From Bacteroides sp. (lineage in GTDB: Bacteria > Bacteroidota > Bacteroidia > Bacteroidales > Bacteroidaceae), in assembly GCA_017472925.1 (NCBI GenBank), contig JAFUNS010000006.1, forward strand, positions 1 through 55,016: DNA of 55,016 nucleotides, read 5' to 3'. Position numbers and translations under genes: made by a program. This document shows positions 36,830 through 53,051 of the stretch, piece by piece (position 1 is the stretch's first letter; the number at the start of each line of letters is the position of its first letter). The notes under the pieces are model-generated. The model ran no database searches. It was not told the DNA's origin and saw only the letters and a list, made by a program, of their open reading frames with translations.

Positions 36830-37990
36830 CATACTGAATATCAATAGTATAAACTTTGATATTTACACAGTTATCCACTCCTTATGGTATCTATAAATTT
36901 GTATTAAGCGTGCTATGTTGTAGGTGAGGTTTGTCATTGCAACATTCGCCTTTGCTCTAACAATGCCAATTCCTCGAAACACAAGACCACCCATCGAACG
37001 CTCTATAAACCCGAACACGTGTTCTACGTGACAACGAATCTTTGATTTAGAGCGATTGTTTTGTTTTTGCTCATCATTTAATGGATGTCCACGAAAACCT
37101 TTCTCGCAGATGACAGGAGTAACAGACTTGTTTGCAAAGCCATCCTCCGTTCCCACATAACCGGCATCAAGCCAAAACATTTCGCCTACCGCATCATTGT
37201 CATCAACCAATTCAGCACCTCGTTTCGAGTCGTGAACAGATGCCGATGTCGTGTCATAACCTGTTATCAGTTTGGTCTTACAGCATACCTTTGCGTGGTT
37301 TTTATAACCGTAGAACGTATCTCCGCCCTTCTTTGTCCAGCGAGCATCAATATCTTTATGGCACTTCTTGTGAGGATTGTCGTTCCACAAACTATCCCTC
37401 TCACCTTTCTTAATTGCCTTGTTCTCCTCTCGTGTATTTCGTTGGCGAGGGGATACGACGAAACTTGCATCTATTATCTTCCCTTCGTTGACAATCAGGC
37501 CAAGGCTCTGCAGATATGCGTAGAAATGCTTGAACAACTCATCATACGCTCCGCATCGTGTCAGCTCTTCTCGATACTTCCATATCGTTCGAGCATCAGG
37601 GACATCATCGACACTGCAAATGCCTATGAAATCACGAAAACTGGTGCGGTCTTTTATCTGGTATTCAGCCTGTTCGTCGCTCAACCCGTATAATCGCTGC
37701 ACAAACATCACCTTGAACATCAATACGGGTTTATGGGGCGACGACCTGCATTGCTCTTGCGTTCTAAAGTTTGCAGTTTGCTCTCAAGAATGGGACGGAA
37801 CATTTCGAAGTCAATCATCTCGGATATAAATTCCAGAGGATTCCCTTGCTTGGATAATGCTTCGAGGGTTTGGGCATGCTCAAACAAACTGCTGCTTGAT
37901 TGATTGCGGCGATAATGAGAACCTTTTTTCATATTCTGTCTTATTTTTGCACAAAGATACAAAATAATTTACTGATTAGCAAGCGATTAA
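36830..37990 (-). mobile_element. IS5-type insertion element, ends not defined
   Basis: The extent is estimated from the transposase frames plus promoter. I looked for terminal inverted repeats in 36780-36880 and 37960-38060 and found no convincing pair; GGGTAA words occur on both sides but the match is too weak. The element lies between the HU-like gene and PUL2. Confidence 0.6.
36863..37932 (-). pseudogene. IS5-family transposase, frameshifted
   Basis: Two reading frames together make one IS5-type DDE transposase. The first (37932-37720) gives KGSHYRRNQSSSSLFEH through RRPINPY and then stops. The second (37723-36863) continues MFKVMFVQRLYGLSDEQAEYQIKDRTSFRDFIG with DAxxF- and Y-x-E-type motifs to the end. 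At the junction the coding strand reads CCGTATTGATGTTC; one more T would restore NPYLMFKV, so a one-base deletion in a T-run (TTT to TT) is the simple explanation. Programmed frameshifting is a less likely alternative. A TATCTTTG -7 box (37952-37959, minus) with CTTG 20 bases upstream fixes the start at 37932 rather than 37962. Confidence 0.85.
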
Positions 37991-38241: not shown

Positions 38242-38859
38242 ATGGCAAGTGCAGCAGTTTATTTGAATGACGAACGTTCTTTGGTTCTCCGTTTGATAAA
38301 CGGGGACGAGGATGCTTTCTGTGAACTGTATGCTGCTTACAAGAACCGTCTGATTTTTTTCGCTATGCGCTTCTTGAAGTCACGTGAATATGCAGAAGAT
38401 ATATTTCAGGAAGCTTTTATTGCTGTGTGGCAGAGCCGCCGTTTTATCAATCCGGACTCGTCTTTCTCCACCTATTTATATACGATTGTACGAAACCGGG
38501 TGTTGAATTGCTTGCGCGATTGGGAAAACGAGGGAAAGTTGCGTGAATATATCCTTTCTCATGCGGTAGACTATACGGATAATACGAAGGAAGAAATATT
38601 GGTCAACGACTTGCATAGACTTATTTCCCGTGCTCTTCAGCGCCTTACTCCCCGCCAACGGGAGATATTTACCATGAGCAGGGAGAATCAAATGTCGCAT
38701 CGGGAGATAGCGGAAGCCTTGGGCATATCTGTCAATACTGTACAGGAATCCATTTCTGTCTCGTTGCATACTCTCCGAAACTATGTGGAGAAATATTCTG
38801 CAGGACATGCAGATCTTGTCGTATTGTTGGTATGTATAGATCCGGTAATAGGCATTTAA
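38242..38859 (+). CDS. ECF RNA polymerase sigma factor (PUL2)
   Basis: A 205-residue extracytoplasmic-function sigma-70 factor of the Bacteroidales type. Region 2 spans about residues 15-85 (INGDEDAFCELYAAYKNRLIFFAMRFLKSREYAEDIFQEAFIAVWQSRR). Region 4 spans about 130-185 (LQRLTPRQREIFTMSRENQMSHREIAEALGISVNTVQESISVSLHTLR). Such factors pair with a FecR anti-sigma and an STN-domain SusC to sense substrate at the outer membrane. Both partners are downstream, but a phosphatase gene lies between sigma and anti-sigma. The C-terminal tail (AGHADLVVLLVCIDPVIGI) is hydrophobic, which is not rare in this group. Confidence 0.93.
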   Translation: MASAAVYLNDERSLVLRLINGDEDAFCELYAAYKNRLIFFAMRFLKSREYAEDIFQEAFIAVWQSRRFINPDSSFSTYLYTIVRNRVLNCLRDWENEGKLREYILSHAVDYTDNTKEEILVNDLHRLISRALQRLTPRQREIFTMSRENQMSHREIAEALGISVNTVQESISVSLHTLRNYVEKYSAGHADLVVLLVCIDPVIGI

Positions 38860-38967
38860 TCTTAAAAGAAGTTAACGACACCCCTGTATCTTCTCCTTTC
38901 TGTGTATATCTTCATGTAAACGGTACAATAGCCGTTCCATGAAAAGCAATTTGTTATAATAAGGTAT

Positions 38968-40359
38968 ATGAAACGTTTTTTCTTATTGATGGCTTTGGTT
39001 GTTTGGGTGGCACTTGCTTCCGCCCAACGTGCAAAGTATGTATTCTATTTTATCGGTGATGGAATGGGATTCAATCAAATCAACTCCACCGAAATGTATT
39101 TGGCATCCCAAAAGGGATACATCGGTGCGGAACCATTGCTGCTTTCTTCTTTCCCGGTTACGGGATTTGCTACAACTTTTTCTGCAACTCACCCGGTAAC
39201 AGACTCGGCTGCTGGTGGTACAGCATTGGCGGTAGGTGAAAAAACATATAACGATGCCATCGGAATGGATACATTGAAGCATCCTTTGTACTCCATAGCG
39301 GTCAAGGCAAAAGAAGCGGGAAAGAAGGTTGGAATTACTACGACTGTGAGTATCGATCATGCTACTCCGGCTGCATTTTACGCCCATCAGATACATCGCA
39401 ATATGTATTACGAGATTGCACTTGATTTACCTGTGGCAGGATTTGATTTTTATGGTGGAGGCGGTTTCGTCAATCCAAACACAACTTATGACAAGAAGAA
39501 GGCTCCGAGTATTTATTCAATTTTCGATGAAGCGGGATATACGGTTGCTCGCGGCTTGCAGGAATACAAGGAAAAAAGTAGTGGTGCCCACAAAATGATA
39601 TTGATGCAACGCAATGAGGTGGTATCTGCCGACTTGCCTTTTGCCATTGACCGTACGGCAGACGATTTGACTTTGGCGCAAATTACCGAAAGTGCAGTTT
39701 CTTTCCTTGCTAAAGACAATAAGGGATTTTTTCTGATGATAGAAGGCGGACGGGTAGATAAGGCTTGTCATGGCAACGATGCCCGGACGATGTTCGGAGA
39801 AGTGATGGATATGGATGAGGCAGTGAAGGTAGCATACGAGTTTTACAAAAGGCATCCGAAGGAAACATTGATAGTGGTAACAGCCGATCACGAAACGGCA
39901 GGGTTGGGTATTGGCGCAGGCCCTTATACATTGAACTTAGCGGCATTGAGTTACCAAAAACAGTCGGTGAACGAACTCTCACGCGCTATTACCACACTTC
40001 GCAAGGATGGAAAGGCTACTTGGGAACAGGTGAAGAATCTGCTTTCGGAAAAGATGGGGTTCTGGAGCGAGCTTGTTCTGACTTGGGAACAGGAGAAAAT
40101 ACTGCGTGATGAATTCGAAACTTCGTTTGTGAAGCGTAAGGTGAAGTTTGAAGAGACACTTTATGCCAAAACAGAACCATTGGCAGCTGCAGCTCGCAAA
40201 GTGATTAATCAGATAGCAGGATTGGCATGGTGTTCTACCGGACATTCTGCCGCTTATGTTCCGGTATTTGCCGTAGGCGTAGGGGCGGACTTGTTCGCAG
40301 GCAAAATGGATAATACGGAAATTCCCCGTCGTATAGCCAAGGCGGCGGGATATAAATAA
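38968..40359 (+). CDS. Alkaline phosphatase, exported
   Basis: A 463-residue periplasmic alkaline phosphatase (signal MKRFFLLMALVVWVALASA). FYFIGDGMGFNQ carries the metal-binding Asp. THPVTDSAAGGTALA has the nucleophile Ser80. DHATPAAFYAH, EGGRVDKACHGNDARTM, VVTADHETAG and CSTGHSAAYVPVFAVG supply the remaining metal ligands, so the active site looks complete. It hydrolyses phosphomonoesters, for example glycerol 3-phosphate to glycerol and phosphate. It lies 108 bases after the sigma gene and 10 bases before the FecR gene. That position, within the regulatory cassette of a locus with two GDPD enzymes, argues for a role in the same pathway rather than general phosphate scavenging. Confidence 0.94.
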   Translation: MKRFFLLMALVVWVALASAQRAKYVFYFIGDGMGFNQINSTEMYLASQKGYIGAEPLLLSSFPVTGFATTFSATHPVTDSAAGGTALAVGEKTYNDAIGMDTLKHPLYSIAVKAKEAGKKVGITTTVSIDHATPAAFYAHQIHRNMYYEIALDLPVAGFDFYGGGGFVNPNTTYDKKKAPSIYSIFDEAGYTVARGLQEYKEKSSGAHKMILMQRNEVVSADLPFAIDRTADDLTLAQITESAVSFLAKDNKGFFLMIEGGRVDKACHGNDARTMFGEVMDMDEAVKVAYEFYKRHPKETLIVVTADHETAGLGIGAGPYTLNLAALSYQKQSVNELSRAITTLRKDGKATWEQVKNLLSEKMGFWSELVLTWEQEKILRDEFETSFVKRKVKFEETLYAKTEPLAAAARKVINQIAGLAWCSTGHSAAYVPVFAVGVGADLFAGKMDNTEIPRRIAKAAGYK

Positions 40360-40369
40360 AGGTGATTGG

Positions 40370-41350
40370 ATGAAGAAACATTCGGAAGAAAGTTTTTTGT
40401 TGCGTCGTTATGTAGATAATCTTTATACTACAGAAGACGCACGCAAATTGTTGAAAACCATTCATGCTCCGGAATGTGAAGAAGTTTTGGATGGATTGAC
40501 CTCCGATGTCTGGGAAGAATCGGAGGCTCAAACATTGTTGACTGGTGTGGAACATGAGCGTTATAAAAAGGAAGCCCGCCAACTGTTGAAACGTATCGAG
40601 CACAAAAAACGTTTCTATTTTCGTCGCATAGCGGTAGCGGTGGCAAGTATGGCGGCTATGTTTTGTCTGGTATGGGGAGGCGTGAAATATGTGGATTATT
40701 TGAAAGTACAACAGGTGGTATGGAAAATTGTGTCCACAACATATGGAGAGAAGAAAAACATTGTATTGCCTGATGGAACGATGCTGGTTCTGAATTCCTG
40801 CTCCAAGGTACGATATCCTATTCGTTTTGTTTCGGATGAAAGGAAAGTGGAGCTGGAAGGGGAAGGATATTTTCAGGTGGCACGTAACGAGGAACAGCCT
40901 TTCATCGTAAGTACTTCTCGTTTTGATGTACGGGTACTGGGTACCAGTTTCAATATTAAATCCTACAAAGCGGACGAATTGGTTTCGGTCGATGTGGAGA
41001 GCGGGAAAGTGCAGGTGGACTTGCCTGAAGCGATGATGCGTCTTCGTGCTAAGGAGAAGATGCTGTTCAATACGCATACAGGAAATTACAATAAATCATC
41101 GATGGAACAGAAAATTGCCTTATGGAGAAAAGGAATACTCTGTTTCAACCAGACTCCAATTCGTGATGTAGCGAAAGAGCTGGAGCGAATTTATCAGTGC
41201 AGGATTACTTTTGCAGACGGACAGAGTTTTGACAATCTAATTACCGGCGAACATGAAAATCCTAATTTGGAGTCGGTACTTCGTTCTATTCAGTATGCCA
41301 GTAGTATATACTATAAAAGAAACGGAAACAGTATTCTATTGTATAAATAA
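40370..41350 (+). CDS. FecR-family anti-sigma factor (PUL2)
   Basis: A 326-residue FecR/PupR-like protein. The cytoplasmic N-terminus (LLRRYVDNLYTTEDARKLLKTI) should bind the sigma factor. A single TM follows (FYFRRIAVAVASMAAMFCLVWGGV, about residues 85-108). The periplasmic FecR domain has KKNIVLPDGTMLVLNSCSKVRYP, VELEGEGYFQVARNEEQPFIVSTSRFDVRVLGTSFNI and a C-terminal STN-like contact domain (FNQTPIRDVAKELERIYQCRITFAD). It should hold the sigma factor inactive until the STN-domain SusC signals. It starts 10 bases after the phosphatase stop, so those two genes are likely translated from one mRNA. Confidence 0.92.
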   Translation: MKKHSEESFLLRRYVDNLYTTEDARKLLKTIHAPECEEVLDGLTSDVWEESEAQTLLTGVEHERYKKEARQLLKRIEHKKRFYFRRIAVAVASMAAMFCLVWGGVKYVDYLKVQQVVWKIVSTTYGEKKNIVLPDGTMLVLNSCSKVRYPIRFVSDERKVELEGEGYFQVARNEEQPFIVSTSRFDVRVLGTSFNIKSYKADELVSVDVESGKVQVDLPEAMMRLRAKEKMLFNTHTGNYNKSSMEQKIALWRKGILCFNQTPIRDVAKELERIYQCRITFADGQSFDNLITGEHENPNLESVLRSIQYASSIYYKRNGNSILLYK

Positions 41351-41543
41351 TGATGTTTAACCTTTAAAAGATTCAGTCTATGAGAAAAACACCACCTTGA
41401 TTACAAAAGAGGAGAACATTTCGGTGAAATGCTCCCCTCAACGTAATGCGGATGACTGTTCATGCGGGTCGAAACGAATGTACTTGCCATCCTCCATTAC
41501 TTCGTTTTAATTAAATTTACTAATTTAAAAAACGTACAAATTT
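41351..41543 (+). promoter_or_regulatory. Leader region of susC2
   Basis: 193 bases without a clear gene. A stem (GAGGAGAACATTT near 41409 against AAATGCTCCCCTC near 41427) has a short loop. A tiny frame, ATG AGA AAA ACA CCA CCT then stop at about 41381, precedes it. Either could serve in regulating the SusC mRNA; no consensus -7 box was found. Confidence 0.35.
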
Positions 41544-44500
41544 ATGAAATATATATTTGACGCAGAAAAGAAAAGCAAGAAAGCAGGAACGTTTTTAGTT
41601 TTTTTACTATTTGTATGCTTGTCGTTTACATCAGTATATGCGCAAGCTCAAGAGAAAACGGTTACACTTAACGTACAGAATGTAGCGGTGGAAAACGTTT
41701 TCAGTGCTATCAGCAAACAGACAGGAGTGAAGTTCTTTTACGATCAGGAAGTGGTGGCGGATGTACCCCACGTAACGTTGAACGTATCAATGCCTCTCAA
41801 AAAAGTATTGGATAAAGTCGCTTCACAGACTAAATTAGTTTTCAATAGGGATAATAATACAATTACTGTAGGCAAACAAGGAAGCGCAAAAGCAGTTAAA
41901 CAAACCAAAAACATAAACGGACAGGTGGTAGACAATACGGGTGAACCGGTGATTGGTGCCAATGTGGTGGTAAAAGGTACAACTAATGGTGTGATTACCG
42001 ACTTTGACGGTAATTATACACTGAATGATGTGCCGGTAGATGCTACAGTGCAAATTACTTATATTGGTTATCAGACAGTGGAACTGAAAGCAGGAAGTTC
42101 TGTTCTTGCCAAAGTTACTTTGAAGGAGGATGCCGAGATGTTGTCAGAAGTGGTGGTTGTAGGTTATGGCTCGCAGAAACGTGCCAATTTGACGGGTGCC
42201 GTTTCCACCATTACGGCAGACGACATCAACAACCGTCCGGTGACATCTGCTGCCGGTGCTTTACAGGGTGCTGACCCTTCTTTGAACTTGACATTCGGTT
42301 CTGGTGCGTTGGACTCTGACTATAGCATCAACATCCGTGGTGTAGCTTCTATCAATGGGGGTTCTCCTTTGGTCTTGGCTGATGGTATGGAAGTAAGTTT
42401 GAACCAAATTAACCCGAACGATATTGAGTCTATTTCTGTATTGAAGGACGCTTCAGCTTCGGCTGTTTATGGTGCTAAAGCTTCTTCCGGTGTCATTTTG
42501 ATTACGACCAAGAAAGGTAAGGATACCAAAGGAAAGGCAACCGTCACTTACAATGGCCGTATGGCATGGAAACAGAATACGACTTCTACAGACTTCATTT
42601 CTACCGGTTACGATTATGTAAGCCTCGTAAACCAGTTTTATGAAGCCTATCAGGGCAAGCAATGGCTGACTTACGATGAAGAAGACATGCAGATGTTGTA
42701 CGACCGTCGCAATGACAAAACGGAAAATGCTGACCGCCCTTGGGTCTTGACAAATGATGCAGGAAAGTATTTGTATTATGGTAACTTTGACTGGTATGGT
42801 TATTTGTATAGAAGGACTCGTCCGGAACAGGAACACAATGTATCAGTGACCGGCGGTACAGACAAAGTCAATTATTTTATCAGTGGTCGTTTGCTTGACC
42901 AGGATGGTGTATTCAATATCTATGAAGACAACTACAAGAATTACTCGTTCCGTGCCAAAGTCAATGCCAAGTTGACCGACCGTTTGAACTATACGGTCAA
43001 TCTGAACTTCAACTCCAATACATATAAGTATGGAGGTATGTATAATGAGCAGCAGGGTATGTACTTTTTGGCATACAATGTATTCCCGACCGTTGTCCCA
43101 AGAAATCCCGATGGAACTATCGTACAGTACATCAATCAGATGAGCTCATCGTCACCGATGGGTGGCGGACATGCCGGTTTCTTGACCGCAGATGTGGCAC
43201 GAAACAGCCGTAAGAATGAAGACTGGGTATTGTCGAATGAATTGAACTTTAAGGTGTTCGATGATTTGACTCTTACTGCCAGTTATGCTTACAAGAATCG
43301 GGGTCGTCTGTACAAGTACAGAAACAACACCTTCGAATATTCCCAGCAGGAGGGTGTGACCAAGACTTTCAAATCGGGTACGATCTACGATTATTATCAG
43401 GAAACCCACCGCACTATTGAAGACCATAATGTGAATGTATATGGTACTTACGAACATCAGTGGAACAAGAAGCACAACTTCAAGGCAGTGGCAGGTATGC
43501 AATTCGAGGATTATCGCAGTGACCAGCATTCTGTTAAGAGAACAGACTTGTTGAGCGATGATTTGAGTACGTTGGGGGTAGCCACTGGCGAAGCGATTAT
43601 CACACAGGATATCTCTGCATGGCGTACCTTGGGTTTCTTCGGCCGTGTAAACTACGACTATATGGGTAAATATTTGTTGGAGGTCAGTGGACGTTGTGAT
43701 GGCTCTTCGCGTTTCGCTTCGGAGGATCGTTGGGGTTTCTTCCCATCTGCATCTTTCGGTTGGAGAGCCAGTGAAGAAAAATTCTTCGAACCTTTGAAGG
43801 ATTTCTGGAATAGTGCGAAAGTACGTTTCTCTGTAGGTAGCTTGGGTAATCAACAGGTGGATAACTATGCTTATTTCGATCAAATATCCACAGACAATCA
43901 GATGTCTTATACTTTCGATGGTTCGACCAAAGCTTATTATGCTTCGGTGACGGCTCCTAAGTCAGCACATTTGGGATGGGAAACCGTAACCACTTACGAC
44001 TGGGGCCTTGATTTTGGCTTCTTTAATAATCGGTTGAATGTGACTGCAGACTATTTTATCCGTTATACCAAGGATATGTTGACCACTTCTTTGACATTGC
44101 CGTCTGTATATGGTGCAAGTACACCGGAAGCGAATTGTGCAGATCTTCGTACCAATGGCTGGGAAATTGCCATAAACTGGAACGATCAGTTTGAATTGGC
44201 AGGAAAGCCGTTTAAATACAATGTATCTGCGAGTTTAGGTGACTACAAACGTGTGATTACCAAGTATAACAATCCGGATAAATTACTTTCAGACTATTAT
44301 GAAGGTAAGGAATTGGGTGAAATCTGGGGATATAGGACAGCCGGCCTGTTTGCTACGGATGAAGAAGCGGCTGCTTATCAGGCACAAATCAATGACAAAG
44401 CAGTAAATAATCGTGTTTACGTGTCTAAGAACGACAACTATTTGCGTGCCGGTGATGTGCATTTCCTTGATTTGGACGGCGATAAGGTTATTTCCGAAGG

Positions 44501-45074
44501 TTCAGGAACAGTGAACGACCCGGGTGATATGCGGGTGATTGGTAACACTACACCCCGCTACAGCTATTCGTTCCGTTTGGGTGCCGACTATTGCGGTTTC
44601 GATTTCTCTGCGTTTTTCCAGGGAGTAGGCAAACGCAACTGGTGTCCCGGTCAGTATGCCTACGATTTCTGGGGACCGTATGCTATTCCTTCTGTATCCT
44701 TCATTCACGAGGATTTTCTGGATAACTGCTGGAGTGAGGATAATACGGATGGTTACTTCCCTCGTCAGCGTGGTTATCAGTCATATAGTTCCGGAGCATT
44801 GGGAGTGAAAAGCGACCGTTACATGCAGAATGTGGCTTATCTTCGTCTGAAGAATCTGACTTTGGGCTATACGCTTCCTATTAACAAGAAGATTGTGAAT
44901 AAGGTAAGAGTGTATGTAGCCGGTGAAAACCTTTTCTATTGGTCTCCTTTGAAGAAATATACAAAGACATTGGATCCGGAAATGGCTGTTTCCAGTTCTT
45001 CTTACTATTCCAATTCTGGTTTGGGATATACTTATTCCAAATCATTCTCAATAGGTCTTGATGTTACATTTTAA
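41544..45074 (+). CDS. SusC-family TonB-dependent transporter with N-terminal STN domain (PUL2)
   Basis: A 1176-residue outer-membrane receptor. After the signal sequence (TFLVFLLFVCLSFTSVYAQ), residues ~35-110 are an STN domain (EKTVTLNVQNVAVENVFSAISKQTGVKFFYDQEVV...MPLKKVLDKV), the part that contacts an anti-sigma factor. CarboxypepD_reg-like (INGQVVDNTGEPVIGANVVVKGTTNGVITDFDG), the TonB-box-like SEVVVVGYGSQK, plug (ISVLKDASASAVYGAKASSGVILITTKKG) and barrel follow. The STN domain together with the upstream sigma/FecR genes shows trans-envelope signalling control, unlike PUL1. It should import the locus substrate with SusD2, 14 bases downstream. Confidence 0.95.
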   Translation: MKYIFDAEKKSKKAGTFLVFLLFVCLSFTSVYAQAQEKTVTLNVQNVAVENVFSAISKQTGVKFFYDQEVVADVPHVTLNVSMPLKKVLDKVASQTKLVFNRDNNTITVGKQGSAKAVKQTKNINGQVVDNTGEPVIGANVVVKGTTNGVITDFDGNYTLNDVPVDATVQITYIGYQTVELKAGSSVLAKVTLKEDAEMLSEVVVVGYGSQKRANLTGAVSTITADDINNRPVTSAAGALQGADPSLNLTFGSGALDSDYSINIRGVASINGGSPLVLADGMEVSLNQINPNDIESISVLKDASASAVYGAKASSGVILITTKKGKDTKGKATVTYNGRMAWKQNTTSTDFISTGYDYVSLVNQFYEAYQGKQWLTYDEEDMQMLYDRRNDKTENADRPWVLTNDAGKYLYYGNFDWYGYLYRRTRPEQEHNVSVTGGTDKVNYFISGRLLDQDGVFNIYEDNYKNYSFRAKVNAKLTDRLNYTVNLNFNSNTYKYGGMYNEQQGMYFLAYNVFPTVVPRNPDGTIVQYINQMSSSSPMGGGHAGFLTADVARNSRKNEDWVLSNELNFKVFDDLTLTASYAYKNRGRLYKYRNNTFEYSQQEGVTKTFKSGTIYDYYQETHRTIEDHNVNVYGTYEHQWNKKHNFKAVAGMQFEDYRSDQHSVKRTDLLSDDLSTLGVATGEAIITQDISAWRTLGFFGRVNYDYMGKYLLEVSGRCDGSSRFASEDRWGFFPSASFGWRASEEKFFEPLKDFWNSAKVRFSVGSLGNQQVDNYAYFDQISTDNQMSYTFDGSTKAYYASVTAPKSAHLGWETVTTYDWGLDFGFFNNRLNVTADYFIRYTKDMLTTSLTLPSVYGASTPEANCADLRTNGWEIAINWNDQFELAGKPFKYNVSASLGDYKRVITKYNNPDKLLSDYYEGKELGEIWGYRTAGLFATDEEAAAYQAQINDKAVNNRVYVSKNDNYLRAGDVHFLDLDGDKVISEGSGTVNDPGDMRVIGNTTPRYSYSFRLGADYCGFDFSAFFQGVGKRNWCPGQYAYDFWGPYAIPSVSFIHEDFLDNCWSEDNTDGYFPRQRGYQSYSSGALGVKSDRYMQNVAYLRLKNLTLGYTLPINKKIVNKVRVYVAGENLFYWSPLKKYTKTLDPEMAVSSSSYYSNSGLGYTYSKSFSIGLDVTF

Positions 45075-45088
45075 TTGAATAGAACGTT

Positions 45089-46840
45089 ATGAAAATGAAA
45101 TATAATTTGAACCTTATGGCAATCCTGTTGGTGGCAGGATGTTTTAGTGCGTGTGACAGTCTGCTGGATATGGCTCCCGAGGATACATTGAGTCCCGATA
45201 CATATTTTGCCAATGAAACCCAGTTGGAACTGTGGACCAACCAGTTCTATTCACAGTTTGATGCGGCTGATGATGCGGCGTTGACTGAAGCGGAAGATGT
45301 GGTGGATACCAATTTGGGAACTTTGCTTATGGGACAACGAATGGCTTCGAACGAATCTGGCTGGAGTTGGACTATGTTGCGAAAAATCAACTATTATCTT
45401 CAGAACTCTTATCATTGCAAAAGCGAATCGGTTCGTAATGAATACGACGGCGTGGCATACTTTATGCGTGCTTATTTTTACTATATAAAGGTACGTCGTT
45501 ACGGGGATGTTCCTTGGTATAATCAGGTGTTGGATTCAGATGATACCGAGTATCTGTATCAGGCACGGGATGACCGTGGATTGGTGATGGATTCTATCAT
45601 GAGTGATTTGGACAAGGCTATCGATATGTTGCCTACAGCTAAGGATAAACTTCATGTAACCAAGTGGACGGCTTTGGCGTTCAAGAGCCGTGCGGCACTT
45701 TACGAGGGCACTTATCGCAAATACCGTAATATGGACAATGCTGACAAGTATTTGAAGTTGGCTGCTGAAGCTGCCGAAAACTTCATAGCAAACAGCGGAT
45801 ATAAACTGTACACTTCAGGGGCAGAGCCTTATCGCACTTTGTTCAACAGCATTGATTGTGTAGATCAGGAAGTGATTCTGACACGCAAGTATGGTACGGA
45901 AGCCAATGTAATGCATAGCATCCAGTTTAATATCATTAACCAACGTCAGGGTCTGAGCAAACGGATGATGAATCACTACCTGATGGCGGACGGTTCTCGG
46001 TTTACCGAACAGGAAGGATGGGAAACAATGGAATATGTGGACGAAGTGAAGAACCGTGACCCTCGTTTGGAACAGACAGTACTGTGTCCGGGGTATGTGC
46101 AGATTGGAAATAAGGACATTTCTGTCAACGACTTGACTTCCATTACCGGTTATCGACCCATTAAGTTTGTAAATGCATCGGCTTACGACGGTTCTTTGAA
46201 GGCATATACAGACTTCCCCTTGTTCCGTGCTCCGGAAGTTTATTTGAACTTTGCGGAAGCGAAAGCTGAACTGGGAACTTTGACACAAGACGATTTAGAT
46301 AAATCTGTCAATGTTATCCGTGCCCGCGCCAATATGCCAAGCCTGAATATGGTGGAAGCCAATGCCAATCCGGATGCTTTGTTGAAAGAATACTATCCGA
46401 ATGCCACTTCGAGCAGCAATACAGGTGTGATTCTGGAAATCCGCCGTGAACGTGTGGTGGAACTGGTTATGGAGGGTTTCCATTTGTGGGATATGTTCCG
46501 TTGGAAAGAAGGACAGCAGTTCACCAAGCCTTTCTATGGTATGTATTTCCCCGGTCCGGGTCAATACGACATGGACGGTGACGGTACTACTGATGGAAAA
46601 AATGACTTGTTGCTCTATACCGACAGCAAGGGAAGCTTCAAAGGTACTGCCAAAAAGATTGGTTCCGAAGTCATTCTTTCGGAAGGCGACAAAGGATACT
46701 TGTGGGTACATAGTAACATCACTGTATCTTGGGATGAAACCCGTGACTATTTATGGCCGATTCCTGCCGATGAACGTGTGTTGACCGGTGGTGTCTTGAC
46801 GCAAAATCCTGGCTGGACGGACAGTACCAACTTTGATTGA
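45089..46840 (+). CDS. SusD/RagB-family surface lipoprotein (PUL2)
   Basis: A 583-residue SusD homologue with lipobox GCFSACDS (Cys21). TPR-like helices appear in GVAYFMRAYFYYIKVRRYGDVPWY. The family pattern near the C-terminus is FPLFRAPEVYLNFAEAKAELG and VILEIRRERVVELVMEGFHLWDMFRWKEG. It is shorter than the PUL1 SusD but within family range. It should bind substrate at the cell surface and close the SusC2 channel. A hairpin lies between it and the next gene (46848-46874), which may set the relative mRNA levels. Confidence 0.94.
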   Translation: MKMKYNLNLMAILLVAGCFSACDSLLDMAPEDTLSPDTYFANETQLELWTNQFYSQFDAADDAALTEAEDVVDTNLGTLLMGQRMASNESGWSWTMLRKINYYLQNSYHCKSESVRNEYDGVAYFMRAYFYYIKVRRYGDVPWYNQVLDSDDTEYLYQARDDRGLVMDSIMSDLDKAIDMLPTAKDKLHVTKWTALAFKSRAALYEGTYRKYRNMDNADKYLKLAAEAAENFIANSGYKLYTSGAEPYRTLFNSIDCVDQEVILTRKYGTEANVMHSIQFNIINQRQGLSKRMMNHYLMADGSRFTEQEGWETMEYVDEVKNRDPRLEQTVLCPGYVQIGNKDISVNDLTSITGYRPIKFVNASAYDGSLKAYTDFPLFRAPEVYLNFAEAKAELGTLTQDDLDKSVNVIRARANMPSLNMVEANANPDALLKEYYPNATSSSNTGVILEIRRERVVELVMEGFHLWDMFRWKEGQQFTKPFYGMYFPGPGQYDMDGDGTTDGKNDLLLYTDSKGSFKGTAKKIGSEVILSEGDKGYLWVHSNITVSWDETRDYLWPIPADERVLTGGVLTQNPGWTDSTNFD

Positions 46841-46847
46841 TAACTGA

Positions 46848-46874
46848 GGAGGGTGGACGTTGGTCCATCCCTCC
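46848..46874 (+). other. Intra-operon hairpin between susD2 and the GDPD-SGNH gene
   Basis: GGAGGGTGGA (46848-46857) pairs with TCCATCCCTCC (46864-46874) with one bulge. There is no T-run, so it is better read as an mRNA-stabilising or processing stem than as a terminator. Confidence 0.5.
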
Positions 46875-46890
46875 TAAACAGTGCAAAACC

Positions 46891-48822
46891 ATGAAACGAC
46901 ATTTGTTTATATTGTGCTTGCTATGCTCATTGACATCATGGGCACAGCCAAGTAAATTGGATTTCATCCTCGAAAAACTTTACGATGGAGGAAAGTCCGA
47001 TTATGTGATGATCTTCGCACATCGTGGAGATTGGCGCAATGCTCCCGAAAACTCGATTCAAGCTTATCAGAATTGTATTGATGCCGGTTTCGACGGTATC
47101 GAAGTGGATGTACAGATGACCAAGGACAGTGTATTGGTCATGATGCACGACCGTACACTTGACCGTACCACCACTGGCAAGGGATTGGTTTCCAATCATA
47201 CGTTGGCAGAATTGAAGGAACTTTATCTGCGGAGTCCTATCAATGTGGTGAGTCGTCAGCGTATTCCTACTTTCGATGAGGTGCTGGAACTGGCTAAAGG
47301 GAAGATTCTCCTGCAAGTGGATAAATGGTCTTCGGTGGCTGAATTAGTCATCGAAGCCGCCAAACGTCACGATTGCGAGAATCAGATTGTCTTGCGGAGC
47401 ACCAAAAGCAGCAAACAGCTGGCTGCCGAGTACGGTGATTTGCTTTTGAATGTGATTTATTGTCCGGTAGTCTTTTGTAACGGTAAGAATGATGACGAGA
47501 AATTGGATGACTTTATGGATAATATCAAGACTCCGGTGATTGGTATTTCATTCAAGCAGGAAGGCTACAAGGTTTTGGATAGAGTGCAGGAAATGAATGA
47601 TAGAGGTTTCCGTGTATGGTATAATTCCCTTTGGGCTACTTTCAATGCCGGACACGATGATGAAATGTCTGTCAATAACCCTGAAAATGGATACGGTTAC
47701 TTGTTGGATAAAGGGGCGAATGTCATCTTTTCCGATCATCCGTTCCTGTTGGATGCCTATCTGAAAAAGGTGGGGCGTAGAAATAGGGAAAAGAAAGTGG
47801 AAAGGAAAGGGGTGGTTTATACGGATGCTTCTTTATTGGGCATGGTAAACAAACCGCAGGCAGGAGGACCTCTTTATCATCGGATGGATGTAGCTCGTTA
47901 TCCTGAGCTGAATACTACAGTAAACCGCTATTATCAGTTCTCTACCGGACTTGCTGTGACATTCCGTACCGATAGTAGGAACATTTATGCCCGTTGGACT
48001 ACACTGAATAAAAGCAATCGTTTTGAAACGCCTTTGATAGCACAGAAAGGGTTGGATTTGTACATAAAGAAAAACGGTGAATGGATATTTGCTGGGACAG
48101 GTACTCCCAATCATTCTGCAGAACATGATGCGCCGTTGATTCAAAATATGGAGGAAGGTGTGAAGGAATGTTTGCTTTATCTGCCATTGTTCGATAATGT
48201 GGAGAAATTAGAGATTGGCGTGGATACTTCATCCATGCTCGAAGCCTTGCCTAATCCTTTCAAGCATAAAGTTGTGGTGATAGGTTCCAGCATCACACAT
48301 GGAGTGGGTGTCAGTCGTCCGGGTATGGCCTATCCGGCACGATTGGAGCGGGCTATGGATATGGAGTTCTGTAATCTTGGTGCAAGCGGGCAGTGCAAAT
48401 TGGATATGTTTTATGCGAGGATAGCCGCCGAGACAGAAGCGGATGCCTTCGTGTTCGACACGTTTTCCAATCCCAATGCCAAGCAGATAGAGGAGCGCCT
48501 GGCGGATTTTGTAGCTCGTATTCGTACCGCTCATCCGAATACTCCGCTTATATTCTTACAGACGGAAGTACGTGAAACGGGTAATTTTAACCTGAAACGT
48601 CGTAGCTTTGAACAAGACAAACGGACTGCAGCGGAAAGAGGATTGGAAGAGTTGATGAAGAAGGATAAGAATATCTATTTCATCAATCCGGGTATGCCGT
48701 TGGGGGATGACCATGAGGCGACTGTCGATGGGGTACATCCTACCGATATGGGGCATGAACGGATATTGGAACATATTCAACCGAAAATAGAAAAGATTCT
48801 CCGGAAACATGGAGTGAAATAA
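46891..48822 (+). CDS. GDPD phosphodiesterase fused to GxDLY and SGNH esterase domains
   Basis: About 643 residues. The ATG at 46891 starts a signal peptide (MKRHLFILCLLCSLTSWAQ); an upstream start at 46837 adds a non-signal stretch. Residues ~38-285 are a glycerophosphodiester phosphodiesterase: FAHRGDWRNAPENSIQAY with His44, GIEVDVQMTKDSVLVMMHDRTLDRTT with Glu, Asp and His, and a C-terminal SDHPFLLDAYL. Residues ~300-430 match the GxDLY domain (KGLDLYIKKNGEW). Residues ~455-640 are an SGNH/GDSL hydrolase with Ser466 (GSSITHG) and Asp613/His616 (DGVHPTDMGH). GDPD enzymes split glycerophosphodiesters into glycerol 3-phosphate and an alcohol; the SGNH part should remove an ester-linked acyl group. 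Both active sites look intact. Confidence 0.9.
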   Translation: MKRHLFILCLLCSLTSWAQPSKLDFILEKLYDGGKSDYVMIFAHRGDWRNAPENSIQAYQNCIDAGFDGIEVDVQMTKDSVLVMMHDRTLDRTTTGKGLVSNHTLAELKELYLRSPINVVSRQRIPTFDEVLELAKGKILLQVDKWSSVAELVIEAAKRHDCENQIVLRSTKSSKQLAAEYGDLLLNVIYCPVVFCNGKNDDEKLDDFMDNIKTPVIGISFKQEGYKVLDRVQEMNDRGFRVWYNSLWATFNAGHDDEMSVNNPENGYGYLLDKGANVIFSDHPFLLDAYLKKVGRRNREKKVERKGVVYTDASLLGMVNKPQAGGPLYHRMDVARYPELNTTVNRYYQFSTGLAVTFRTDSRNIYARWTTLNKSNRFETPLIAQKGLDLYIKKNGEWIFAGTGTPNHSAEHDAPLIQNMEEGVKECLLYLPLFDNVEKLEIGVDTSSMLEALPNPFKHKVVVIGSSITHGVGVSRPGMAYPARLERAMDMEFCNLGASGQCKLDMFYARIAAETEADAFVFDTFSNPNAKQIEERLADFVARIRTAHPNTPLIFLQTEVRETGNFNLKRRSFEQDKRTAAERGLEELMKKDKNIYFINPGMPLGDDHEATVDGVHPTDMGHERILEHIQPKIEKILRKHGVK

Positions 48823-48850
48823 TTAGTAATGTATTTAAATGTAAATAACC

Positions 48851-49753
48851 ATGAACAAAAGATATTGTCTGTCATTGCTGGCTGTGGTGGTCTGTACCCT
48901 CCAGCTTGTGGCACAAGACCGGGTGAGTGTCATCCGTGAAAAGTTATTGAACCGCGACGAAAGCAGCGTCATCGTGGCCTCACACCGGGGCGACTGGCGC
49001 AACTTCCCCGAAAACTCCCTGGCGGCTATCGACAACGCCATCAGGATGGGAGTGGACATTGTGGAACTGGACGTACAGCGCACCAAGGACGGTGTGCTCA
49101 TCCTGATGCACGACGGCACGCTCGACCGTACCACTACGGGTAAGGGCAAGATTGCGGAAGTGACGATGGACTCCATCGCCAAGCTGAAGCTGAAGAACGG
49201 TTGCGCCATCCGTACCGTCCATAAGGTGCCCACTTTGGAGGAAGCCCTTCTCCATGCCAAGGGCAAGATTATGCTGAACCTCGACAAGGCCGACCGCTAT
49301 TTTGAGGAGGTGTATGCCCTGATGCAGAAGACGGGCACCACCAAGCAGGTCATCATGAAGGGCAACAAGTCTGCCGCCGCCGTAAAGAAGCAGTTCGGCA
49401 AATACCTGGATGATGTCATCTACATGCCGATCGTGAACCTTGACAAGAAGAACGCCAGGGAACAATTGGAGATATTTTCCGAGGGCCTGAATCCGGTGGC
49501 TTACGAGCTCCTGTTCGTCAAGGACAGCAATCCGCTTCCGTTGGAGGTGAAGAAGATGCTGCGCGGCAAGTCGCTTATCTGGTACAACACGCTTTGGGAC
49601 ACCATGGCCGGCGGTCACGATGACGACATGTCGCTTCAGGACCCCGACAAGGGCTACGGCTATCTGATTGACACGCTGGGCTGTCGTATCATCCAGACGG
49701 ACCGTCCGCAATACCTGATTGACTATTTGAGGAAGCGTGGCCTTCATGATTAA
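48851..49753 (+). CDS. Glycerophosphodiester phosphodiesterase
   Basis: A 300-residue exported GDPD (signal MNKRYCLSLLAVVVCTLQLVAQ). ASHRGDWRNFPENSLAAIDNAI carries His45, and DIVELDVQRTKDGVLILMHDGTLDRTTTGKG holds the metal-binding Glu and Asp and the second His. The C-terminal WYNTLWDTMAGGHDDDMSLQDPDKGYGYLIDTLGCRIIQTDRP is close to the matching region of the preceding fusion protein, so the two GDPD domains are paralogues. It would release glycerol 3-phosphate in the periplasm or at the surface. From about 48890 the base composition becomes clearly GC-richer than in the upstream genes, and this continues through the transporter gene. Confidence 0.93.
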   Translation: MNKRYCLSLLAVVVCTLQLVAQDRVSVIREKLLNRDESSVIVASHRGDWRNFPENSLAAIDNAIRMGVDIVELDVQRTKDGVLILMHDGTLDRTTTGKGKIAEVTMDSIAKLKLKNGCAIRTVHKVPTLEEALLHAKGKIMLNLDKADRYFEEVYALMQKTGTTKQVIMKGNKSAAAVKKQFGKYLDDVIYMPIVNLDKKNAREQLEIFSEGLNPVAYELLFVKDSNPLPLEVKKMLRGKSLIWYNTLWDTMAGGHDDDMSLQDPDKGYGYLIDTLGCRIIQTDRPQYLIDYLRKRGLHD

Positions 49754-49765
49754 ATCCTATGCCAC

Positions 49766-51094
49766 ATGATAAAGAGACTATTGGATTTCTATAGAATCTC
49801 CTCTCCGGCGGAAAGCCGGGGAGGGGAAGACGGCCGTTTCCGTCGCCTGCGCTGGGCGACGTTCATATCGGCCACACTCGGCTATGGTGTCTACTATGTG
49901 TGCCGTTTGAGCATGAACGTGGTCCGCAAGCCTATGGTGGATGCGGGGGTGTTCACCGAGAGCCAGCTCGGTGTCATCGGCTCGTGCCTGTTCTTCGTGT
50001 ATGCGGTGGGCAAGCTGACCAACGGCTTTCTGGCCGACCGCAGCAACGTGAAGCGCTTCATGTCCACGGGCCTTCTGTGCTCGGCACTCATCAACCTGGC
50101 ATTGGGCTTTACGGAATCGTTCTATGCCTTTGCCATATTGTGGGGACTGAACGGCTGGTTCCAGTCCATGGGCGCTGCCTCGGGTGTGGTAAGCCTTTCC
50201 CGCTGGTTCGAGCCTCAGAAACGGGGTACGTACTACGGCTTCTGGAGTGCGAGCCACAACATCGGCGAGGCGTTGACGTTCATTTCCATCGCCCTGCTTG
50301 TCAGTGCTTTCGGATGGCGGTACGGCATGATCGGTGCCGGACTGGTGGGCTTGGCGGGCTTCGCTCTGTTGGCGGTATTCATGCGCGACACTCCACAGAG
50401 CCAGGGCTATCTGCTCGGCAACGGACAAGAGACAAGGAAGCGGCAGAAGAGCGAAGACTTCAACAAGGCACAGAAGGCGGTGCTCCGCCATCCTGCCATC
50501 TGGATACTGGCACTCAGCAGTGCGTTCATGTACATCAGCCGCTATGCGGTGAACTCCTGGGGCGTGTTCTACCTCGAAGCCCAGAAAGGCTATGACACGC
50601 TCGATGCCAGCTTCATCATCTCCATCAGTTCGGTGTGCGGCATCATCGGTACGGTGCTTTCGGGTGTGATATCCGACAAGTTCTTCCGGGGCAGCCGCAA
50701 CGTGCCTGCCTTGGTTTTCGGTCTGATGAATACGGTTGCCCTCTGCATGTTCCTCCTCGTGCCGGGTGTACACTTCTGGCTGGATGTGACGGCCATGATA
50801 CTCTTCGGCCTGGGCGTCGGTGCCCTCATCTGCTTCTTGGGAGGCCTGATGGCGGTGGACATTGCTCCGAAGAATGCCTCGGGTGCCGCACTGGGTGTGG
50901 TAGGCATCGCCAGCTACATCGGTGCCGGTGTGCAGGATGTGATGAGCGGCATTCTTATCGAAGGCAACAAACAGGTGGTGGACGGTGTGGAAGTGTACGA
51001 CTTCACGGCCATCAACTGGTTCTGGATAGGTGCTGCCCTGCTTTCTACGCTGCTTGCCTTGTTGGTGTGGAATGCGAAAGCTAAAGAGTTATAA
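49766..51094 (+). CDS. GlpT/UhpT-type organophosphate:phosphate antiporter (MFS)
   Basis: A 442-residue twelve-helix transporter of the OPA family (GlpT, UhpT, PgtP). LRWATFISATLGYGVYYVCRLSMNVVRKPMVD is the OPA opening, with the conserved aromatic and Arg residues of helix 1. GSCLFFVYAVGKLTNGFLADRSNVKRFMSTGLL is the MFS loop 2-3 motif. SRYAVNSWGVFYLEAQKGYD and DIAPKNASGAALGVVGIASYIGAGVQDVMSGI are the C-half blocks. The likely substrate is glycerol 3-phosphate, given two upstream GDPD genes 12 bases and further away; hexose phosphate cannot be excluded. The N-terminal ~25 residues (ISSPAESRGGEDG) are unusual and are encoded by a GC-rich hairpin. The GC-rich codon use matches the second GDPD gene. 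Confidence 0.9.
   Translation: MIKRLLDFYRISSPAESRGGEDGRFRRLRWATFISATLGYGVYYVCRLSMNVVRKPMVDAGVFTESQLGVIGSCLFFVYAVGKLTNGFLADRSNVKRFMSTGLLCSALINLALGFTESFYAFAILWGLNGWFQSMGAASGVVSLSRWFEPQKRGTYYGFWSASHNIGEALTFISIALLVSAFGWRYGMIGAGLVGLAGFALLAVFMRDTPQSQGYLLGNGQETRKRQKSEDFNKAQKAVLRHPAIWILALSSAFMYISRYAVNSWGVFYLEAQKGYDTLDASFIISISSVCGIIGTVLSGVISDKFFRGSRNVPALVFGLMNTVALCMFLLVPGVHFWLDVTAMILFGLGVGALICFLGGLMAVDIAPKNASGAALGVVGIASYIGAGVQDVMSGILIEGNKQVVDGVEVYDFTAINWFWIGAALLSTLLALLVWNAKAKEL
49800..49824 (+). repeat. GC-rich hairpin inside the 5' end of the transporter gene
   Basis: CCTCTCCGGC (49800-49809) and GCCGGGGAGG (49815-49824) pair with one G-U around a GGAAA loop, within the first 20 codons. It encodes residues that family members lack in the N-terminal tail. 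Confidence 0.75.
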
Positions 51095-51098
51095 GGAT

Positions 51099-52934
51099 AT
51101 GATGAAGAAGGTATTATTGATGGGCTTGTTATGCGCTTCGTGCATGACTGGCTTTGCCCAATGGGCACCTGCCGGAGACAAAATCCGCACATCGTGGGCG
51201 AAAGAAGTAAATCCCAATAATGTACTTCCGGAGTATCCGCGCCCTATTATGAAACGCGCGGGCTGGAAGAACCTAAACGGTTTGTGGGAATATGCCATTG
51301 TAGACAAGCGGGTGAATTGTCCTGAAGCGTTCGACGGCAATATCCTGGTGCCGTTTGCAGTAGAATCCTCACTGTCTGGAGTAGGAAAGCGGGTGGGCGA
51401 GAACAAGGTCTTGTTCTACCGCCGTTCGTTCAGCGTTCCTGCGGCATGGAAAGGTAAACGGGTGCTGCTTCATTTCGGTGCGGTGGATTGGAAAGCGGAA
51501 GTATGGGTGAACAATGTAAAAGTGGGTACCCATACCGGAGGCTATACACCGTTTTCGTTTGATGTCACTCCGGTGCTGAGACCGGAGGGAGAGAATGAAC
51601 TGGTGGTACGTGTATGGGATCCGACAGATAGAGCCAACCAGCCGCGCGGCAAGCAGGTAACCAATCCGAAAGGAATCTATTATACTCCTGTAACCGGCAT
51701 CTGGCAAACCGTGTGGTTAGAACCGGTGGCTGAAAAGTATATCGCCAACCTCCGTATCGTGCCGGATATCGATTGCCATACGTTGAAGGTGGAAGCATCC
51801 ATTGATAATCGCACTCCTTCCGACCTGATCGAAGTCACGGTGTATGATGGCGATGAGGAAGTGGCGAAAGGTGGAAGCATCAACTACGAAGCGGTGGAGG
51901 TGCAGATGCCGAAGGATGTCAAACTCTGGAGCCCCGAATCGCCTTTCCTCTATAAACTGAAGGTGACGCTGACCCACAAAGGGAAGGCGGTGGATAAGGT
52001 GGACAGTTATGCCGCTATGCGGAAGGTGTCTGCCCGCAAGGACAAGGACGGCATCGTGCGCCTGGAGCTGAACAACGAACCTTATTTTCAATTCGGCCCC
52101 CTCGATCAGGGATGGTGGCCCGATGGACTCTATACAGCTCCTACGGATGAAGCGTTGAAGTATGACATCGAAAAGACGAAAGATTTCGGATACAACATGA
52201 TTCGCAAGCATATTAAGGTGGAGCCGGCACGCTGGTACACCCATTGCGACAGTATCGGTATCTTGGTTTGGCAGGATATGCCGAGCGGTAGCGGTCGTCC
52301 TGAATGGCAGGCACGTAAATACTTTGACGGCGTTGAACTGAACTATTCGGCTGGGGATGAAGCAACCTACCGCAAGGAATGGAAAGAAATCATGGATTGT
52401 CTGTATTCTTATCCGTGCATCGGCGTATGGGTGCCGTTCAATGAACGTTGGGGCCAGTTCAAGACCATGGAGATAGCCGAATGGACCAAAGCTTACGATC
52501 CCAATCGTTTGGTGAATCCGGCAAGCGGTGGAAACCATTATCCGTGCGGCGATATGCTTGATATTCACAACTATCCCGAGCCGCAACTTGATTTCTACGA
52601 TGCTTGTCGTGCCAATGTACTTGGAGAGTATGGAGGTATTGGATTGGTCATGAAGGGACATCTATGGGTGCCCGACAGAAACTGGGGATACGTGCAGTTC
52701 AAGTCGTCCAAGGAAGCAACGGATGCTTATGAGGAATATGCCAATATACTTTATAATCTGATTAAACGGGGTACTACGGCGGCAGTCTACACGCAGACTA
52801 CCGATGTGGAAGTCGAGGTGAACGGTCTGATGACTTATGACCGTAAAGTTGTCAAGCTGGACGAACGGCGTCTGAAGGAAATCAACCGCCGTATCTGTTC
52901 TTCACTGAATACAGATTCGAAGACGCTTCGCTAA
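51099..52934 (+). CDS. Glycoside hydrolase family 2 enzyme (PUL2)
   Basis: About 611 residues, taking the ATG at 51099, four bases after the transporter stop; it opens a signal peptide (MMKKVLLMGLLCASCMTGFAQ). The GH2 sandwich domains are visible (YPRPIMKRAGWKNLNGLWEYAI, VLLHFGAVDWKAEVWVNNVKVGTHTGGYTPFSFDVT, GIYYTPVTGIWQTVWLEPV). The barrel has acid/base Glu449 (VPFNERWGQ) and nucleophile Glu510 (VLGEYGG). The family covers beta-galactosidase, beta-mannosidase and beta-glucuronidase, but the barrel here is of the short uncharacterised Bacteroidales type and specificity is not evident. It is the last gene of the PUL2 operon, implying the substrate carries a beta-linked sugar. Confidence 0.92.
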   Translation: MMKKVLLMGLLCASCMTGFAQWAPAGDKIRTSWAKEVNPNNVLPEYPRPIMKRAGWKNLNGLWEYAIVDKRVNCPEAFDGNILVPFAVESSLSGVGKRVGENKVLFYRRSFSVPAAWKGKRVLLHFGAVDWKAEVWVNNVKVGTHTGGYTPFSFDVTPVLRPEGENELVVRVWDPTDRANQPRGKQVTNPKGIYYTPVTGIWQTVWLEPVAEKYIANLRIVPDIDCHTLKVEASIDNRTPSDLIEVTVYDGDEEVAKGGSINYEAVEVQMPKDVKLWSPESPFLYKLKVTLTHKGKAVDKVDSYAAMRKVSARKDKDGIVRLELNNEPYFQFGPLDQGWWPDGLYTAPTDEALKYDIEKTKDFGYNMIRKHIKVEPARWYTHCDSIGILVWQDMPSGSGRPEWQARKYFDGVELNYSAGDEATYRKEWKEIMDCLYSYPCIGVWVPFNERWGQFKTMEIAEWTKAYDPNRLVNPASGGNHYPCGDMLDIHNYPEPQLDFYDACRANVLGEYGGIGLVMKGHLWVPDRNWGYVQFKSSKEATDAYEEYANILYNLIKRGTTAAVYTQTTDVEVEVNGLMTYDRKVVKLDERRLKEINRRICSSLNTDSKTLR

Positions 52935-52956: not shown

Positions 52957-53051
52957 GGTTCTGATTCAATTTAGGGGCAGCCAATCCATTGTAGTATATT
53001 TTCATTCTGAGTGTTATAACAGATTGGCTGCCCCTAAATTGAATCAGAACC
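52957..53051. repeat. Perfect 30-base inverted repeat between convergent genes
   Basis: Arms 52957-52986 and 53022-53051 are exact reverse complements with a 35-base AT-rich loop. It lies between the GH2 stop and the stop of the Fic gene. No T-run follows either arm. The perfect symmetry suggests a recent miniature element or a strong bidirectional transcript stem. Confidence 0.85.

Follow-up and report, generated by a model that had tools for sequence, protein, structure and literature searches.

A candidate SusCD locus for glycerophosphodiester catabolism in Bacteroides

We analysed a 55,016-nucleotide stretch of DNA from Bacteroides sp. (Bacteroidaceae; assembly GCA_017472925.1, contig JAFUNS010000006.1, positions 1 to 55,016; "the window"), which is part of a 2.8 Mb assembly of 79 contigs that is 79.7% complete. 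At positions 38242 to 52934 it carries a SusCD locus with two glycerophosphodiester phosphodiesterase (GDPD) genes, one of them fused to an SGNH esterase, followed by a GlpT-like organophosphate carrier. A preliminary description had named nine genes here, all on one strand and separated by short gaps, and this holds for each of them. Domains of the window proteins were assigned by profile searches with Pfam and NCBIfam; G and L numbers denote the genomes and regions used for comparison.

Gene content of the locus

The genes, and an inverted repeat beyond the last of them, are as follows.

38242..38859, + strand: ECF sigma factor (TIGR02985, 162 bits, over cut-off)
38968..40359, + strand: secreted alkaline phosphatase, between the sigma and anti-sigma genes (PF00245, 246 bits, over cut-off)
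40370..41350, + strand: FecR anti-sigma factor (PF04773 and PF16344)
41544..45074, + strand: STN-SusC TonB-dependent transporter (STN, PF07660; TIGR04056, 871.5 bits, cut-off 368)
45089..46840, + strand: SusD lipoprotein (PF07980, 142 bits)
46837..48822, + strand: GDPD-DUF4996-GxDLY-SGNH (Lipase_GDSL_3) fusion (all four Pfam domains over their cut-offs; likely start ATG 46891)
48851..49753, + strand: GDPD2, the second GDPD-DUF4996 enzyme (Pfam; solved relative 3i10, E=5e-102)
49766..51094, + strand: GlpT-like MFS organophosphate antiporter, the carrier (best solved relative the glycerol-3-phosphate transporter 1pw4, E=1e-44)
51099..52934, + strand: glycoside hydrolase family 2 (GH2) protein, a probable furanosidase (74% identical to 7sf2, 46% to 9j6n; open reading frame listed from GTG 51030)
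52957..53051, no strand: 37-nt inverted repeat, 92% complementary, with a 21-nt loop, with GH2 on one side and a convergent Fic gene on the other

The gaps from the ECF gene to susD are 108, 10, 193 and 14 bp. The fusion gene follows susD at -4 bp, or at 50 bp if it starts at ATG 46891, and the next gaps are 28 bp (fusion to GDPD2) and 12 bp (GDPD2 to carrier). The carrier ends at 51094 and GH2, starting at ATG 51099 or 51102, lies 4 or 7 bp behind it; at this spacing, a lack of co-transcription of GH2 and the transporter with the GDPD genes looks unlikely. The Bacteroides -33/-7 promoter pattern gave no match upstream of the ECF or SusC genes, and a generic promoter and terminator scan gave matches at the level of shuffled sequence. 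The inverted repeat is likely a two-way terminator or a small mobile remnant.

A SusC/RagA transporter and, 14 bp away, a SusD gene make this a SusCD locus, and the ECF, FecR, STN-SusC and SusD genes with secreted enzymes downstream match the SusCD polysaccharide utilization loci under ECF/FecR control. The difference from those systems lies in the conserved part, which here consists of phosphodiesterases, an esterase and an organophosphate carrier. The only glycoside hydrolase, GH2, is absent from the closest relative of the locus (below), so "SusCD glycerophosphodiester locus" is a safer name than "glycan utilization locus", although the conserved SGNH domain may be a carbohydrate esterase. 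Judged by eye, the four hydrolases carry type I-like signal peptides of periplasmic appearance and SusD looks like a lipoprotein.

Conservation and assembly of the locus

Among 61 genomes of the genus searched, the sole other copy of the fusion (79% identical) is in a congeneric genome, G827. Its region (L179) runs ECF-FecR-SusC-SusD-GDPD/SGNH-GDPD-GlpT-like carrier, as in the window, with identities of 80% for SusC, 85% for SusD, 87% for GDPD2 and 85% for the carrier. Its ECF and FecR proteins are only 31% identical to those of the window, and L179 and the next 10 kb held neither an alkaline phosphatase nor a GH2 gene. The locus of B. cellulosilyticus DSM 14838 (L004) is alike in order, with SusC at 66%, SusD at 68%, the first GDPD at 69%, GDPD2 at 80% and the carrier at 80%; it differs in that the first GDPD has no SGNH fusion, a sulfatase-family gene stands between GDPD2 and the carrier, and alkaline phosphatase and GH2 are missing. 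G811 and G812 share the B. cellulosilyticus order (ECF-FecR-SusC-SusD-GDPD1-GDPD2-sulfatase-family gene-carrier), and G469 (L047) has it minus the sulfatase-family gene.

The gene set is not a product of chance, since its order is found again in G827 and for the most part in B. cellulosilyticus, and an assembly error is rejected on the same ground. A plasmid origin was also considered and set aside, the only match being a weak one to GH2 alone (74% over 13% of the query). Recurrence across G827, B. cellulosilyticus, G811, G812 and G469 indicates that the GDPD pair and the carrier are old, and the core predates the window genome. The SGNH-GDPD fusion is, as far as seen, restricted to the window's genus. 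The alkaline phosphatase and GH2 seem to have been added, probably recently, in the lineage of the window.

The GC content at third codon positions (GC3) is 0.76 in GDPD2, 0.75 in the carrier and 0.57 in GH2, against 0.42-0.54 in the other genes of the operon and 0.32-0.63 in the other measured genes of the window. Since GC3 is not raised in this way in the orthologs of GDPD2 and the carrier from L004, L047, L107 and L179, replacement of 48851-51094 from a GC-rich donor is likely, and by its composition the operon is a patchwork. Such a build, together with the absence of alkaline phosphatase and GH2 from the sister locus and the divergence of the regulator pair, would suit ordinary scavenging of phosphate or glycerol phosphate through a generalist SusCD pair, with the SGNH domain, phosphatase and GH2 as hitch-hikers that have no common substrate. 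We hold this to be improbable: the GDPD-SGNH fusion has been kept at 79% identity, the association of SGNH with GDPD is repeated (below), and the gene spacing is tight.

Relatives of GDPD2 occur in 60 of 399 genomes of the family (E<=1e-40), and relatives of 3i10 in 55 of the 158 genomes of the genus of G548 (1e-50). We compared 80 GDPD regions of up to 20 kb, scoring their content by BLAST of called open reading frames (ORFs) against references; the first 20 were chosen for high identity to the window GDPDs, and some regions overlap or share a genome. ORFs were called greedily, which recovered the GDPD in 73 of the 80 regions and missed the GH2 of L143 in its own region, so that all counts of presence and absence are approximate. 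SusC and SusD stand together in 46 regions, a GlpT relative in 26 and ECF with FecR in 29; 29 regions have none of these, and five more have no match whatever. When GDPD is mapped as a label on a SusD tree of 80 rows, seven changes are required, at least three of them forced by well-supported branches (mean of 26 with shuffled labels, 0 of 500 shuffles as low; this is a quick tree with several long branches flagged). GDPD has thus been coupled to SusCD in several lineages.

In 28 chosen genomes, most of them already known as GDPD carriers, there were 15 ECF relatives of at least 53% identity; the distance to a DUF4996 GDPD is 7-13 kb for ten of them and 21-31 kb for three, and the other two lie elsewhere. 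The window ECF is closer to those of other GDPD-GlpT loci (64-77%) than to that of the sister locus. Regulator cassettes therefore seem to move among GDPD-GlpT loci, which suggests a shared type of inducer. With its core set and order recurring, and with GDPD genes found beside several SusD lineages, the assignment of a dedicated SusCD locus to glycerophosphodiester catabolism is upheld: uptake and digestion of glycerophosphodiesters as the core function is well supported by genomic context.

Phosphoesterases, esterase and accessory genes

Both GDPDs match PF03009 (100 and 98 bits, cut-off 23.6), and DUF4996 forms the C-terminal half of each, which corrects an earlier description. In the alignment, by eye, the HRG..PENS, E-x-D and HD motifs are intact in both. 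The solved relatives of the fusion protein are 3i10 and 4lhs. The first of these, presumably from B. thetaiotaomicron, gave no route to a named locus of that species, with no identical match among the 158 genomes. These motifs, like those of the SGNH domain and GH2 below, are associated with activity. For the teichoicase GlpQ of B. subtilis, the published work (PMC7086022) gives the catalytic roles of the His, Glu and Asp residues.

The esterase part of the fusion has the profile matches (PF14607, PF14606) and Ser-Asp-His residues of a GxDLY/Lipase_GDSL_3 enzyme. S163, D309 and H312 of this part (A2), which we take to be the catalytic triad, are invariant in 20 aligned SGNH rows. The domain is fused to GDPD in two species, those of the window and of G827. 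An order-wide search found the two best SGNH matches outside the own genome (59-60%) in G019 and G025, and both adjoin a GDPD that is 70-72% identical to GDPD2. The G019 locus (L062) unites SusCD, Exo_endo_phos, GH3, SGNH, GDPD and a GlpT-like carrier, and that of G025 (L063) has SGNH and GDPD with a CE2-type esterase. In G560 (L049, 3445-6942, - strand) a single GH20-SGNH protein lies directly beside a DUF4996 GDPD, and in G548 (L048, 12940-16529) a separate GH20 gene is followed by SGNH directly beside such a GDPD, each with a SusCD pair. The SGNH enzyme had been proposed to act in the pathway by removing an acetyl or D-alanyl ester; its link to GDPD is real, and the ester could also be acetyl, succinyl or fatty acyl instead of alanyl. 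SGNH relatives of lower identity (36-38%) in three Bacteroidales metagenome-assembled genomes (MAGs; L007, L008, L009) stand beside GlpT-like genes (47-49%), with no GDPD detected nearby.

To keep the choice of regions independent of GDPD, SusD itself was used as query. This search gave 53 matches, of which the top 24, those examined, are the window itself, four in GDPD regions (L047, L074, L079, L082) and 19 in new regions. Three of the latter were dropped as duplicates (L159, L162, L173; the SusD of L159 duplicates an L082 row that is labelled none since the L082 region ends early) and that of G605 was lost to ORF calling. The 15 distinct SusDs that were left (36-48% by BLAST) stand with Exo_endo_phos (five), calcineurin-like enzymes (seven) or neither (three: L165, L170, L172). 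Together with the four beside GDPDs, 16 of the 19 SusD relatives found independently of GDPD have a GDPD, Exo_endo_phos or calcineurin-like enzyme within 7 kb on the same strand, compared with 0 of 12 control SusDs from regions chosen by GH2. The Fisher values (3.7e-5 and 3.2e-6) overstate the evidence, because Exo_endo_phos and calcineurin-like enzymes were selected with the loci already in view and the rows are related, the seven calcineurin ones clustering closely. On the tree, the window SusD falls in a supported clade of 26 rows, ten with GDPD, seven with calcineurin-like enzymes, five with Exo_endo_phos and four with none. These neighbourhoods support a phosphoester cargo. Two of the regions (L156, 7001-19419; L158, 4647-16357) combine SusCD relatives with Exo_endo_phos, GH89 and GH3. 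The last two are fused in L158, and L156 has a GH20-like gene as well. Both loci resemble systems for phosphodiester glycans that contain alpha- and beta-linked sugars.

The carrier scores 195 bits against the glpT equivalog TIGR00712 and so falls below its cut-off of 632.55. It likely works like GlpT all the same, as 1pw4 is its best solved match and Arg/Arg/His residues, presumably those of the phosphate site, look aligned. The own assembly has a match over cut-off for the N domain of glycerol-3-phosphate dehydrogenase, and no glycerol kinase over cut-off was found in this 79.7%-complete assembly; uptake of glycerol 3-phosphate through the carrier is therefore a likelier productive route than full dephosphorylation. 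Alkaline phosphatase, which had been counted as a step of the pathway, falls outside the conserved core, with no BLAST relative among the called ORFs of the 80 GDPD regions.

GH2 is 74% identical over 584 residues to the solved GH2 protein 7sf2 and 46% over 554 residues to 9j6n, the beta-D-galactofuranosidase of Streptomyces JHA19; PF02836, the GH2 TIM barrel, scores 19 against a cut-off of 21. The likeness to 9j6n extends to the NE and GEYGG/GEFGG motifs, and NE and GEYGG are intact by eye in the window protein. In the relevant paper (PMC12243196), 9J6M, the partner entry of 9j6n, is placed in GH2_18, and the GH2_18/19 group is described as acting on furanoses. Close relatives of the window GH2 (about 67-73%) live in other surroundings: 15 of the 20 regions around them hold a hybrid two-component system (HTCS) gene, and neither these regions nor six further stretches had a GDPD, Exo_endo_phos, calcineurin-like, GlpT or SGNH relative among called ORFs. 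In G627, the sole such home that was followed downstream, a SusCD pair and then three GH43 genes come next. GH2 probably came from an arabinan-type locus. With no counterpart in the sister locus and with relatives at home elsewhere, it has little bearing on the substrate, and the suggestion that it strips a beta-linked sugar from teichoic acid is weak, as is its use as evidence for a glycosylated teichoic acid.

Elsewhere in the window, an arabinan-type locus lies upstream at 10905-35311, with an HTCS gene (minus strand), SusC, SusD, three GH43, GH97, a GH51-type arabinofuranosidase and GH127 (Pfam). A DDE transposase ORF without a clear start (36863-37723, - strand; PF01609, PF05598) lies 0.5 kb upstream of the ECF gene and is possibly a recent insertion next to the operon. 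At 7145-10759, a BNR_4 protein precedes a GH88-DUF2264 fusion.

Candidate substrates

If GH2 is nevertheless taken as a guide, the substrate could be a furanose glycan that bears an ester and side groups of glycerol phosphate, from which GH2 would remove galactofuranose. The lipoglycan of bifidobacteria is such a molecule, a galactofuranan with glycerol phosphate and alanine; a literature search on bifidobacterial galactofuranan gave no relevant paper. Apart from the furanosidase likeness of GH2, this reading draws on two regions (L113, L114) in which a DUF4996 GDPD is flanked by GH43 and GH3 genes, with BT_3987-like/DUF4973 proteins close by. We consider it rather unlikely, since the core is complete in the sister locus although GH2 is absent there, the GH2 relatives keep company with HTCS genes and no detected GDPD, and the G627 home suggests arabinan-type substrates. 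The exception is a distant GH2 (36-43%) in G325, which adjoins a GDPD on the opposite strand.

Osmoregulated periplasmic glucans of Gram-negative bacteria bear phosphoglycerol and succinyl substituents, and the gene set of L062 would fit such a substrate. For the window this is very improbable: its locus has no beta-glucosidase, none was detected among the annotated genes of G827, and the window GH2 is not glucosidase-like.

A weightier alternative is that the locus takes up breakdown products of phospholipids, with SGNH as a lysophospholipase, the GDPDs cutting the head group, GlpT importing glycerol 3-phosphate, and different loci in one genome serving different head groups. Consistent with this, minimal ECF-FecR-SusCD-GDPD-GlpT loci (L044, L045, L046, L050, L115) have no carbohydrate enzyme of the kinds sought, and a single genome (G814) has seven matches to the GDPD 3i10. 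Six regions (L061, L065, L066, L071, L084, L117) carry, between SusD and GDPD-GlpT, a PQQ/PKD surface protein, a sugar-isomerase-like TIM barrel of the xylose isomerase type and a beta-lactamase-fold protein, a cassette that may act on a head group resembling inositol. Against this reading stand the small size of deacylated head groups, by the standards of SusCD systems, and the company of SGNH family members in relatives, where they are fused to or placed next to GH20, GH3 and a carbohydrate esterase of the CE2 type; on these grounds we regard the phospholipid reading as unlikely, while giving it real weight. GlpQ-type enzymes cleave several head-group diesters, according to the GlpQ paper (PMC7086022), which also suits it.

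The reading towards which we lean, tentatively, is that of a SusCD acquisition locus for an O-ester-bearing glycerophosphodiester, most likely alanylated poly(glycerol phosphate) fragments of teichoic or lipoteichoic acid (LTA) shed by Gram-positive bacteria. Teichoic acid is the best single guess mainly on the strength of the fused esterase and GDPD and of related loci that contain hexosaminidases; GH2 and the phosphatase do not add to this. The behaviour of GlpQ (PMC7086022) would explain the joining of an esterase to a GDPD: it acts only where the C2 hydroxyl is unmodified, and halts at glycerol phosphate units that carry alanyl or glycosyl groups. In the proposed sequence of events, (i) ECF/FecR would sense the ligand through the STN domain of SusC, and SusD/SusC would import the fragments; (ii) the periplasmic SGNH domain would remove the ester that blocks the C2 hydroxyl of glycerol; (iii) the fused GDPD and GDPD2 would then release glycerol phosphate from the ends; and (iv) the carrier would import sn-glycerol 3-phosphate, which would enter central metabolism via glycerol-3-phosphate dehydrogenase. 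The alkaline phosphatase may salvage phosphate from species that GlpT cannot take, and the GH2 furanosidase may trim a furanosyl side group.

Two known systems are close to this scheme. The glpTQ/ugp pathway of E. coli likewise joins a periplasmic GDPD to import of glycerol 3-phosphate by GlpT; the window adds outer-membrane SusCD, sigma/anti-sigma control and the esterase fusion. GlpQ of B. subtilis shares the GDPD catalytic motif and cuts glycerol-phosphate diesters (PMC7086022); it differs in acting on the producer's own wall, and the window enzymes carry the DUF4996 half and may have another stereospecificity. By titles and the starts of abstracts, the literature matches listed, with most subscription journals outside their scope, included none that describes a teichoic-acid SusCD locus and no locus that joins SusC with a glycerophosphodiesterase or glycerophosphate.

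Several observations weigh against teichoic acid. The locus evidence cannot tell it from ester-bearing diesters derived from phospholipids, and SGNH/GDSL enzymes can also be lipases. The B. cellulosilyticus locus holds a sulfatase-family gene and lacks SGNH, and the minimal loci have no relative of the window's esterase or glycosidase. SGNH beside GDPD is rare, at 2 of 78 GDPD regions not chosen for SGNH, and these two loci are related; against a background of 69 GxDLY matches in 201 genomes this is a modest excess (Poisson P of about 0.013 assuming 2.9 Mb per genome, the two loci not being independent). L062 and L063, picked because SGNH and GDPD both matched, were excluded from this density test. 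In an Alistipes MAG (L005), an SGNH relative of 53-54% has no GDPD ORF within 10 kb, in a region where ORF calling also missed the SGNH itself. The SusD test left out a 32% SusD in L155 and 29 lower matches (32-43%), and Exo_endo_phos and calcineurin-like neighbours could mean a nucleic acid or nucleotide cargo (nuclease models gave weak matches below cut-off). With four hydrolases of periplasmic appearance the locus has no surface endo-enzyme, so that a polymer must arrive pre-cut; with no glycerol kinase over cut-off in this incomplete genome, glycerol made by the phosphatase may be a dead end. Finally, intact LTA (Gro1P) is not cut by GlpQ (PMC7086022), so that action of the DUF4996 GDPDs on LTA would call for another stereospecificity.

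A wider and more speculative proposal is that Bacteroidaceae possess modular phosphodiester loci, in which a SusCD lineage specialised in phosphodiester polymers works with exchangeable sets of phosphoesterases (GDPD-DUF4996, Exo_endo_phos or calcineurin-like), an SGNH domain that removes esters, and exchangeable exo-glycosidases (GH20, GH3, GH89, GH2) that match the various teichoic decorations. Gut Gram-negative bacteria would then forage on Gram-positive wall polymers, with the GDPD-SGNH fusion first unblocking and then cutting alanylated poly(glycerol phosphate).

If teichoic or lipoteichoic acid is indeed the substrate, gut Bacteroidaceae would have a dedicated route for eating the wall polymers of their Gram-positive neighbours. 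This would be a nutrient link between the two groups, and possibly one with an immune effect, since lipoteichoic acid serves as a ligand in immunity. Should the substrate instead derive from phospholipids, the recurrent class of SusCD-GDPD-GlpT loci and the GDPD-esterase fusion would still extend SusCD uptake from glycans to glycerophosphodiesters.

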